DNA of 64,000 bases, from NCBI GenBank assembly GCA_025526935.1, contig JAHLKD010000129.1:57014-121013 (forward strand), written 5' to 3'. Position numbers and translations under genes: made by a program. Position 1 is the stretch's first letter. Each line of letters opens with the position of its first letter. Source of the DNA: Cladochytrium replicatum. Lineage: Eukaryota; Chytridiomycota; Chytridiomycetes; Cladochytriales; Cladochytriaceae. The notes beneath the pieces are model-generated. The model saw only the letters and a program-made list of their open reading frames with translations, did no database searches and was not told the origin of the DNA. Below, in pieces: positions 14,470 to 31,199 of the stretch.

Positions 14470-14955
14470 GCAAATAGATTTTTTTATTGTTTATTGTGCA
14501 CATTACAATGCATAAGAGTAAACAACACCCAAAGTGCCTTACAAGATAGTCATGGACCAGCACATAGGGAAGCATGCGCGACATAAGGAGATGTTGGTGC
14601 AGGGAAGCAACAAAGGGTGACATAGTTTCAAATCGTGGACAGGGGCAAACAAATGCCTTGTTTTTAACGTCATAATATGGATCTATTTTCCAACCAATAC
14701 ATATCACCCGCTGGTACAAAATCCAAATACTAGTGTAAAAAATACACGCAAATTGGCAGAACATGGGGAGCAGTGCAAGCCGTAGGAAAAGTAAAACGTT
14801 TCATAACACTAAGGCATATCCAAATCAACAAAAGCAGACAAGATAGAATCAGGAGCAGGAGACAAAACTAGGTCATAACACCAAATACGGGTAAGTGCAC
14901 AAAGAACAAAAACCCACTGCAAAAGAGCAGGCAAAGGATAGAAAGATTTTTCTTG
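14470..14955 (-). mobile_element. Two 5'-truncated LINE 3' ends, first one chimeric
   Basis: The left piece (about 14470-14665) has the 3' tail of the LINE B type (shared block CACCCAAAGTGCCTTACAA and a T-run at its left edge). It runs directly into a segment matching the ORF2 of LINE C near 21278-21340 (AGCAACAAAGGGTG). The right piece (about 14670-14955) matches the last ~290 bp of LINE C/D (shared CCAACCAATACATATCACCC). Both lie in the same minus orientation as the large elements that follow. They are dead fragments left by incomplete reverse transcription; the first suggests template switching between families. Confidence 0.75.
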
Positions 14956-15790
14956 GATTTCATAATCTGTATTAACTCAATTAAAATCAATACATATCAC
15001 CCGCTTGTGCACAATCCAAAATACTTTATTGGTAAAAACATGTACAATGGTAGCACATGGGGAGCTGTGTGTGCCGGGGAAGGTGTGATGGGTACTAATG
15101 CGGAGAAGGCCATGCTTATTTGACCTAAGCGGAAGGGTATAAGCAGAGATACTGCAAAGCAGAGAGAAGATATTATTGTGGAATAGGTGGGCAGCTCAGG
15201 TCTGGCAAGCCACCTCATTAAAGGTTGAAATGCCAGGTTGATCGCCAGGACACACGGAAGGAGAATCCAGAAGTGGGATTGTAGGTGGAGCAGACAAGCC
15301 AATATCAGGGTTGGCATGAAGATTCGGCGAAGAAATGAGCTCATCAGTGATGACATCATCTGGGTCCATAGATAAGCCATCGGGGACACTGCCAGGGTCC
15401 GTGCCTGAAAGTGGCTCAGGGAAGCAGCTGGGGGCCACCCAAGGCAGAGCAGTGGTGGCTGGTGGAGAAGCATCTGGAGAAGCTGCTGAAGGAGGCAAGG
15501 TAGCTAGAGTACTCAAGAAGATGCTGGCATAGCGCAGGTAGGGCAAAGCAGAGGGTTGCTCAGGTGGCAGGGAGCTCAAAAGTGCATTGGTCAAAGGGTG
15601 ATCTGCTGAGTAACCCCATCTGGTGCAGAGAGAGGTGAAGAGAGTGGCAGGAGAGAGAGGGACTGTAGAGAGGTGCCCAGGAGAGAGAGGAACAGAGGTA
15701 AATAGAATGGCTGCTGGAGGGCAGGGTTCTGGCGTTGAGGTTCAACAAGAGAGCTGAGGCAGATCAACATGGTGAACGGCAAAGGTTGTC
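14956..15790 (-). mobile_element. Short non-autonomous unit carrying a LINE-like 3' tail
   Basis: Its left (3') end repeats the LINE tail core (on the minus strand, GCTCCCCATGTGCT and CGGGTGATATGTATTG), preceded by an AATAAA-like signal. The body differs from LINEs B, C and D. It contains a 132-codon minus-strand frame (15196-15594) rich in Pro, Ser and Ala that I do not recognise; it could be a remnant of a LINE ORF1. The right (5') part, 15640-15720, is GA-rich like the 5' ends of the long elements, and it abuts the T-run of LINE B. Interpreted as a non-autonomous or internally rearranged relative; boundaries are approximate. Confidence 0.5.
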
Positions 15791-16010
15791 TCTTTTTTAA
15801 TAATATTATATATTTATTTTGCACATTACAATGCGAACAATAAACGACACCCAAAGTGCCTTACAATATCCAGCACATACGGAAGCGTGCGCGGCATAAG
15901 GAAAGCAACAAATGAAAACAGAGGGTAAACTCAAACCTGTGGCTAACCATCAGATGCTGCTAAGGTGCCAAAAAAACAGGTGAGTAATAAATAATGAAAA
16001 AAAGAAAACG

Positions 16011-29666: not shown

Positions 29667-31060
29667 TGACGAAGATGGGTTGAGCGAGGCTGACGCGCAA
29701 TCCCGCGGGCACTGTCCAGCACAGTTTCCTGAGCATCCATGGGGAGCTGACCACGGACATACAGGAAAATAGCAGGATCAGTAACTGAACTGAGGATATG
29801 TGCATATCTCTTGTGAACAACTTCCCTGACCGCAGCCTCCCGCTGCTCCAAAGGCAGAGTAGAGGCTCGGCGAAGAAAGTCAGGGTTTGATTCGTCAGTG
29901 GAAGCTTCCTGGGTGGAGAAGTGCGCACGGAGAGCAATTGCGGTTGAGCGAATACAGATAAAGGAAGCAATGTTGCGACCAACGAAACTGATGTGGCGGA
30001 TACCACGCACCACCTCATCGCCCAAGAGAGCCCTCAGCATGGTCCGCACAAAGCCGAGCCGCTGTCTCATGATGTCCTTGATGTACACAGTGGTCAAATC
30101 ATCCACACGGGCCTGAAGATCAGCAGGTGGGGAGACCAGCAGCGGAGAGGTCGGAGGATAGAATACGACAGGCCGAGGGCCACGAAGGCTGACATTCGAA
30201 GTGGGGTCACGACCAGCAAGGGCAGTCCTGACAGCTTCTGTACGAGATTCAGCACTCAGTGTGGGGAGACTCTCAAGCACACGGGCACGGGCATTGGCAG
30301 CAGCAGCGGCATAAGTGCGTGGACCAAGAGGTCCACGTGGGGCAGGTCGACTAGACGGGGGGCGAGGGCCAGGAGCACCAGAGTTCCCAAGATCGTCCTG
30401 AATTGAAGGATTACCATGCAGTTGTCTAGGGGGAAGGCACACAGGCGCAGCCACATCATCATGGCGGGAGACAGGGGCAACCGGAGGTGAAGGCGAAGGC
30501 AGCGGCCTCCCAAAGCGACCCACCAGATCCTCGGCCATATCACGACAAACACTAAAAAATTCAGCAGGAGTGTCCCTCGGCAAATGTGCAAGCATAGGAT
30601 CCAGCATCGCCAACGGATCAAAGGTTGCACAAACAGATCGCATCTGAGTGAGAACGACACGGAGATCGGCCAGAGATGCAACACTCGAGGGAGCAGCCAC
30701 AGCAGCAAGAACCCGGACACCCGGCAGATGTGATCGGGAACGAGAACGGGAGCGACCACGGGGCAATTCATGTTCAGCAGGTCTTTTGGCGCGTCGGTCA
30801 CGTGATCCGAAGTCACGTGATTCGGCATTTTCATCCTCCCCCATATTCACATCATCAGCCCAGTGAATTGGAGAGGCAGGAGCGGAGAATGGAAGCTGTG
30901 GAGCGGAATTTTCAACAGAGGAGGCACGGGGGCGCGAACGGGCCTCAAAAATCACGGTGCCACCAGAAAGTCCATCAGGGGGCACAGGGGGGGTTGCGGC
31001 GGGCGGCGCGGCATGCGGCGCATCAGGCAGCTGCGCATGCGGAGCGCTGGGAGGCGGCAT
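29663..31060 (-). CDS. LINE D ORF1 protein, intact
   Basis: 465 codons from ATG 31060 to TGA 29663-29665. The frame stays open further upstream through the CT repeat (poly Ser-Leu), but that has no ATG and is not taken as coding. The protein is Pro/Ala-rich at the N-terminus, has an RSRSRSRS patch near residue 105, an Ala-rich middle, and a C-terminal domain with [32 protein letters not shown] and [11 protein letters not shown] see no zinc knuckle and no clear RRM. By position it should be the RNA-binding particle protein of the element. Its last codon overlaps the ORF2 start, suggesting stop-restart translation. Confidence 0.85.
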
Positions 31061-31070
31061 TGATTTTTGA

Positions 31071-31199
31071 GTGAGAGAGAGAGAGAGAGAGAGAGAGAGA
31101 GAGAGAGAGAGAGAGAGAGAGAGAGAGAGAGAGAGAGAGAGAGAGAGAGAGAGAGAGAGAGACAGAGAGAGACAGAGAGAGACAGAGAGAGAGAGAGAT
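31071..31199. repeat. (GA)n tract at the 5' end of LINE D
   Basis: About 130 bp of nearly perfect GA repeats (CT on the LINE strand), with three GACAGA interruptions near the tRNA end. Equivalent but shorter tracts precede LINEs C and B, so it is either part of the element's 5' UTR or the insertion target. Confidence 0.9.

Follow-up and report, generated by a model that had tools for sequence, protein, structure and literature searches.

Structure of the array in the window

The window, i.e., the whole stretch of 64 kb of Cladochytrium replicatum DNA analysed here, contains a single tRNA gene detectable by ARAGORN, tRNA-Trp (CCA), at 31205..31277 on the plus strand (Rfam RF00005, 66.6 bits). 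An array of retroelements, all on the minus strand, lies upstream of this gene. Read along the minus strand from the tRNA gene, 6 bp (31199..31204, sequence reading) separate the tRNA 5' base from the first unit, LINE D (26129..31198), a full-length member of the family that we refer to as L1, which comprises a (CT)n 5' tract, ORF1 (29663..31060, minus strand, 465 aa, intact), ORF2 (endonuclease and reverse transcriptase (RT), frame interrupted) and poly(A). The poly(A) of LINE D is joined at 0 bp to a tRNA-headed SINE with an L1-like 3' tail (25833..26128), the poly(A) of which is separated by an 8-bp remnant (25825..25832, sequence reading) from the CT tract of LINE C (20744..25824), another L1 copy with 97.6% identity to D. 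A remnant of ~4 bp (20740..20743, sequence reading) then separates the LINE C poly(A) from the CT tract of LINE B (15794..20739, approximate ends), a decayed member of a second family, L2. Beyond LINE B, decayed fragments were found: two old, 5'-truncated L1-like tails with 77% (14947..15076) and 86% (14658..14945) identity to D, and an old, 5'-truncated L2-like tail with 81% identity to B (14490..14589), which forms the distal end of the array. The family assignment of the array thus spans 14490-31198, except for the stretch 15077-15793.

Most of this layout had been recognised in a sequence-only reading, which placed a head-to-tail array at 14470..31199. The array is real, while the end given for it, 31199, stops just short of the tRNA-Trp gene at 31205. 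The same-orientation units are present (D, the SINE, C, B and the older L1- and L2-like fragments at 14490-15076), all three LINEs B, C and D begin with (CT)n as described, and the junctions indicated at 20742, 25833 and 26129 are correct, with gaps from the poly(A) of ~4, 8 and 0 bp, respectively.

Elsewhere in the window, Copia-like ORFs in opposite orientations were seen by eye at 52383-62111, and there are two tandem duplications, of 419 bp at 55770-56608 and of 185 bp at 62549-62919. A Raptor protein encoded in the window is closest to chains named regulatory-associated protein of mTOR, with KOG1 ranking behind, an order that carries no weight for the affiliation of the DNA.

Element families and their copy number

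Six ORF pieces of the window LINEs were scanned against Pfam, revealing RVT_1, Exo_endo_phos and Exo_endo_phos_2 domains and no integrase domain; the solved structure closest to the LINE RT is human L1 ORF2p. The ORF2 pieces scanned from the three LINEs gave no Pfam match to RNase H; such a domain could have been missed because the ORF2 frames are interrupted, as they are in both LINE D and LINE C. The units end in poly(A), and no LTR was noticed. ORF1 of LINE D has no Pfam match, and its C-terminal part is possibly RRM-like, a weak resemblance with RRM-like matches only at E > 0.1. A fold-based identity was also sought for ORF1; the predicted structure had a mean pLDDT of 48 and its best Foldseek match, a V/A-type ATPase, an E value of 0.019, so no function was assigned.

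The SINE consists of a tRNA-like head, in which A and B boxes follow the usual box consensus, and a poly(A) tail; ARAGORN does not call the head as a tRNA. The SINE tail aligns with the L1 tail over common blocks (three rows, two of them LINE), a resemblance which suggests that the SINE is probably mobilised by L1 proteins. The predicted folds of the common LINE/SINE 3' end are little more stable than those of shuffled sequences (z -1.1 and -1.8).

A pattern search allowing up to two mismatches in the 50.5 Mb genome (198 contigs) revealed 268 LINE 3' ends, 182 LINE 5' ends and 108 SINE heads, while reversed control patterns gave zero matches. The genome also bears out its fungal origin, with 24 Fungal_trans matches, against none in 14 control genomes (all prokaryotic), and 73 chitin synthase matches (separate pieces counted individually), although 4 of the 14 controls matched chitin synthase too. 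The positions of the first 100 of each class were used below, and we refer to these as listed ends.

Several further features of the families were observed. Short L1 units at loci L012, L022, L026 and L096 are repeatedly truncated near position 4933-4944, by CCTACGGCTCGCACGG, a motif common to L1 and the SINE; this truncation point is perhaps a strong RT stop or the mark of a processed RNA. At L022 (sense strand 2410-3326), the 5' part of L1 (to ~640) is joined to its last 345 bp with a 3-bp overlap. At least one further repeated family, by which we mean repeated sequence other than L1, L2 and SINE and for which a LINE nature is not assumed, adjoins tRNA genes or sits within arrays in the same way (L018, L053, L091, L097, L107, L119 and L125).

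Sequences that follow the poly(A)

An important question is whether new copies are directed to the CT-rich 5' ends of existing copies or to CT microsatellites, as the sequence-only reading had proposed. The first 30 loci often showed a CT tract, a SINE head or mid-LINE sequence after the poly(A). The 3' flanks were then tabulated for 132 distinct L1, L2 and SINE 3' ends from 90 loci: 33 are followed by a CT tract or the (CT)n start of a LINE, 20 by a SINE head and 53 by a 5'-truncated L1, L2 or SINE unit, and 26 were unclassified. By hand count, 20 of these 26 are followed within 300 bp by a match to other loci, not always immediately and at L019 and L024 to the other strand of a LINE, and six are without a match. 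Altogether, a unit of the L1, L2 or SINE families or a CT tract lies within 60 bp of 106 of the 132 3' ends, and minority-orientation units total no more than 100 bp in 82 of the 90 loci. Thus, the arrangement is non-random, as had been claimed. The role assigned to CT was not borne out: since a CT start is present at only 33 of the 132 junctions, CT is not the rule and any older unit suffices. The feature common to the arrays is a tRNA gene located a few bp off their 5' end, as seen in most of those with a readable 5' end. The CT tract is the LINE's own 5' end, and it faces the tRNA gene where the unit is the tRNA-proximal one.

tRNA genes as the insertion target

Upstream of the LINE 5' ends, tRNA genes were found in reverse orientation, as confirmed by ARAGORN. 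In loci L001-L090, 34 of 35 distinct tRNAs carry an L1, L2 or SINE unit in the upstream 300 bp, all head-to-head, while the downstream flanks of the same tRNAs contain a unit in 1 of 34 cases; the upstream share is biased, because these loci were picked for containing elements, whereas the orientation and the downstream control are unbiased. Units occur within 300 bp of tRNA genes of 18 isotypes, plus Trp in the window. At 14 of 30 SINE loci, a tRNA end is located 5-13 bp ahead of the CTCA of the SINE head.

The spacing was measured on 75 flanks, taken from the window, the loci and the tRNA list. An L1, L2 or SINE match with an identity of 80% or more is present in 61 of them, 13 of which start in a CT tract and were set aside. 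The remaining 48 non-CT units begin a median of 8 bp from the tRNA 5' base: 43 are 0-15 bp away and the rest 21-72 bp. According to the available part of PMC5911963, pol III starts ~10 bp upstream of the mature tRNA.

A sample of tRNA genes drawn independently of the elements comprised the best 62 of 2278 tRNA candidates (63 scored), some of which are near-duplicate loci (L121 and L122 are alike over the stretch read). On coordinates only, within 6 kb and among the listed ends, at least 32 of the 62 tRNAs have an element end upstream in the opposite orientation, while the other placements are represented by two tRNAs (upstream, same orientation), one (downstream, opposite) and none (downstream, same). 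Within 500 bp, at least 20 tRNAs have a listed end upstream in the opposite orientation, compared with 0.27 on average and at most 3 when placements were randomised 2000 times with approximate contig sizes.

The upstream flanks were read directly for 40 of the 62 tRNAs. Among the first 20, which lack a listed end, repeated sequence starts within 80 bp in 19 (the exception is L092), representing L1, L2 or SINE in 16 and the other repeated family in three. Of the further 20, L129 is at a contig end and was excluded as non-evaluable; a unit was found in 14 of the remaining 19, two of them (L119 and L125) resting on the other repeated family, and the misses are L118, L123, L124, L126 and L130. At L124 and L126, a second tRNA apparently lies directly upstream (by eye). 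The last 22 tRNAs include 13 with a listed end within 130 bp, four more with a unit start within 130 bp (C14:189096, C56:1085, C1:752259 and C57:169538) and five in which the nearest listed end is at 240-448 bp. In total, a unit is present within 130 bp upstream of 50 of the 61 evaluable tRNAs and within 450 bp of 55, and no unit was found upstream of the other six.

5S and U6 genes and the SINE head

Other short genes were examined as controls. L1, L2 and SINE are absent from the 120 bp upstream of both U6 genes above the cut-off (a third, sub-threshold U6 match was left out) and of all eight 5S genes, the latter being non-independent controls because they have a conserved upstream region in common. 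This region is ~100-130 bp long. One 5S locus (L136) has a 24-bp match to locus L021 ~100 bp upstream. For five of the eight 5S rRNA matches (C53:236, C25:501183, C142:201, C31:618 and C167:2163), the contig ends no more than ~2.3 kb away, and the 5S genes are possibly subtelomeric.

At L040/L069 (contig C18), a LINE CT tract stands ~6 bp head-to-head from a SINE head, and a near-identical arrangement is present at L042/L071 (contig C24). No tRNA was called in L040 or L069; SINE heads can serve as tRNA-like targets.

Target duplications and the order of insertion

Another question is whether the units of an array were inserted separately. The 5' and 3' flanks were compared for 99 units with both ends in the locus, and matches were evaluated against permutation. 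Flank repeats of at least 6 nt were found in 13 units (3.9 in permuted data) and of at least 7 nt in 8 units (1.3 permuted), most of them including A's of the tail; matches of 4 nt are no commoner than in permuted data (19 vs 22.7), and a duplication of at least 4 nt is lacking in 57 of the 99 units. Individual cases are GGCTAA on both sides of the SINE at L083, GCAC(T) at successive joins at L081, and a 49-bp duplication around the SINE at L080 (contig C57, sense strand ~1048-1460), which consists of part of a tRNA-Gly and 4 bp of its flank. The L080 duplication leaves a tRNA gene upstream. Where they occur, the short target duplications support separate insertion of the units.

The decay away from the tRNA end that had been described is clear in the window, given the 97.6% identity of C to D against 77% and 86% for the distal L1-like tails; elsewhere, it is weak. 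Among 21 pairs of same-family neighbours, the tRNA-side unit is nearer to the reference, for which the window copy was used, in 15 and farther in 5 (p = 0.04), so that units in other loci are weakly younger toward the tRNA end. Poly(A) length showed no trend with order in 57 pairs (28 longer, 25 shorter, 4 ties).

At L087 (contig C87, sense strand ~1076-1115), the stretch that separates a LINE tail from a SINE resembles, by eye, a tRNA 3' half followed by A's, as would be expected after retroposition of a tRNA fragment into the array.

Origin of the arrays

We consider it very probable that two LINE families, L1 and L2, together with a tRNA-headed SINE and one or more other repeated families, insert just upstream of tRNA genes and stack into arrays there. 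This reading takes in the observed position, precision and orientation of the units, the repeated use of the site, their generality across isotypes, their absence from the 5S and U6 genes examined, their independence of CT and the short duplications at part of them. The pol III initiation complex (TFIIIB/TFIIIC) would bring the endonuclease to a site mostly 0-15 bp upstream of the mature tRNA 5' end, near the expected pol III start; the poly(A) end would be joined via target-primed reverse transcription, with the 5' end of the unit pointing toward the tRNA gene. Later copies, full-length or truncated, would land between the tRNA and the previous copy, so that the poly(A) of the new copy adjoins the older unit at its 5' end and the older copies are pushed outward. 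As the tRNA keeps fixing one spot, a flush, same-orientation, head-to-tail array is the expected outcome, truncated units included. In this respect, growth by repeated insertion on the 5' (tRNA) side had been rightly anticipated from the sequence.

How do other explanations compare? A joint origin by end-to-end template jumping, in which the RT copies several RNAs at once and the array is the product of one event, would account for flush joins across families and with truncated units and for the lack of a duplication of at least 4 nt in 57 of the 99 units, and the R2 RT is known for template jumping. The tRNA adjacency would remain unexplained by it, divergence often differs between neighbouring units, and internal units at L083, L081 and L080 carry short target duplications; this explanation lost ground because of the tRNA adjacency and the internal duplications, and we regard it as very unlikely for the arrays as such, while template jumping may contribute to some joins. 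An endonuclease directed at CT-rich DNA, i.e., at CT microsatellites or at the (CT)n tract with which older copies begin, is exceedingly improbable: the three window LINEs with a CT start and the 33 junctions at CT speak for it, whereas 99 of the 132 poly(A) ends were classed otherwise, CT-less truncated units sit 0-15 bp from tRNA genes, and the CT tract belongs to the 5' end of the element and faces the tRNA genes in tRNA-proximal units. A CT preference inside the tRNA-proximal spot is possible.

Random insertion with survival next to tRNAs, or segmental duplication of a few ancestral blocks of tRNA plus array, would fit the few near-duplicate loci (C18/C24 and L121/L122), yet the base-level spacing, single orientation, many truncation points and 18 isotypes make it hardly credible. 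Finally, one contig (C116) breaks off upstream of a tRNA, which suggests that arrays may be difficult to assemble; the chance that the arrays are an artefact of assembly is nevertheless negligible, considering that dozens of separate loci show the arrangement and that their joins differ.

Insertion upstream of tRNA genes being preferred, a further proposal, which we put forward tentatively and hold to be somewhat doubtful, concerns the SINE: LINE and SINE could be partners in this fungus that recognise pol III promoters of the tRNA type almost to the exact start site, with the tRNA-derived SINE acting both as a passenger and as a portable pol III landing pad. If this is true, the pol III promoter of each SINE copy would draw further LINE and SINE insertions, and the target would multiply with the parasite.

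Relation to known systems

Microsatellite-targeting LINEs exist in animals, and site-specific insertion and head-to-tail arrays are possible for such elements; MoTeR are telomere LINEs of Magnaporthe. Unlike these, the elements described here have the flanks of tRNA genes as their target.

The closest parallels come from social amoebae. According to the available text of PMC5911963, TRE5-A of Dictyostelium discoideum is a non-LTR element with an apurinic-type endonuclease (APE) and RT that inserts upstream of tRNA genes in the opposite transcriptional orientation; TRE5 inserts 40-54 bp ahead of the mature tRNA, with insertions near 5S genes as well, and for TRE5-A, a dependence on TFIIIC and the B box and binding of ORF1 to TFIIIB are reported. 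At least one TRE is borne by 61% of D. discoideum tRNA genes (available part of PMC5006619). As a way of working, the C. replicatum elements are similar, with APE and RT, poly(A) and upstream, head-to-head insertion at tRNA genes. As far as those texts go, they differ in the distance (median of 8 bp instead of 40-54 bp) and in that the 5S genes examined are empty, and also in the fungal host, the presence of at least two families plus a SINE and the long head-to-tail arrays. NLTR-A of Dictyostelium purpureum, a non-LTR element that sits 2-6 bp ahead of the mature tRNA (PMC5006619, available part), is closer in position, as the units here are likewise a few bp upstream of the tRNA. NLTR-A has an RNase H domain after the RT, in contrast to the ORF2 pieces here, which gave no RNase H match and have interrupted frames; its host is an amoebozoan, and its description, in the part available, mentions neither a SINE nor an array.

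Among fungi, tRNA-associated LTR elements have been described. The available part of PMC5911963 describes Ty3, Tj1, Tyl6 and Beta/Tca8 as Ty3-like LTR elements located upstream of tRNA genes or their start sites, at distances from a few to 30 bp, and Ty3-type LTR elements co-localise with tRNAs in Rhizopus (PMC2699053, available part). Unlike such elements as described there, with LTRs and integrase, those of C. replicatum have poly(A), APE and RT, and no LTR was noticed. The non-LTR tRNA-targeters tabulated in the available text of PMC5911963 (TRE5, TRE3, NLTR-A and NLTR-B) are all from social amoebae, the fungal entries being LTR elements only. No fungal non-LTR element with a tRNA-gene target was found in the literature searched, which was available in part, includes a 2018 review and lies largely outside subscription titles, and there is no such fungal case in the available parts of PMC5014426 and PMC8869645. 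Thus, tRNA targeting as a mode is already known, and a fungal LINE/SINE set inserting within a few bases of tRNA genes is apparently another, independent case of it.

The same safe-haven strategy is seen in a fungal LINE/SINE set. It provides a simple rule for the origin of head-to-tail LINE arrays, which can be regarded as a layered record of insertion at tRNA genes, and the elements offer a candidate pol III-guided endonuclease/RT.
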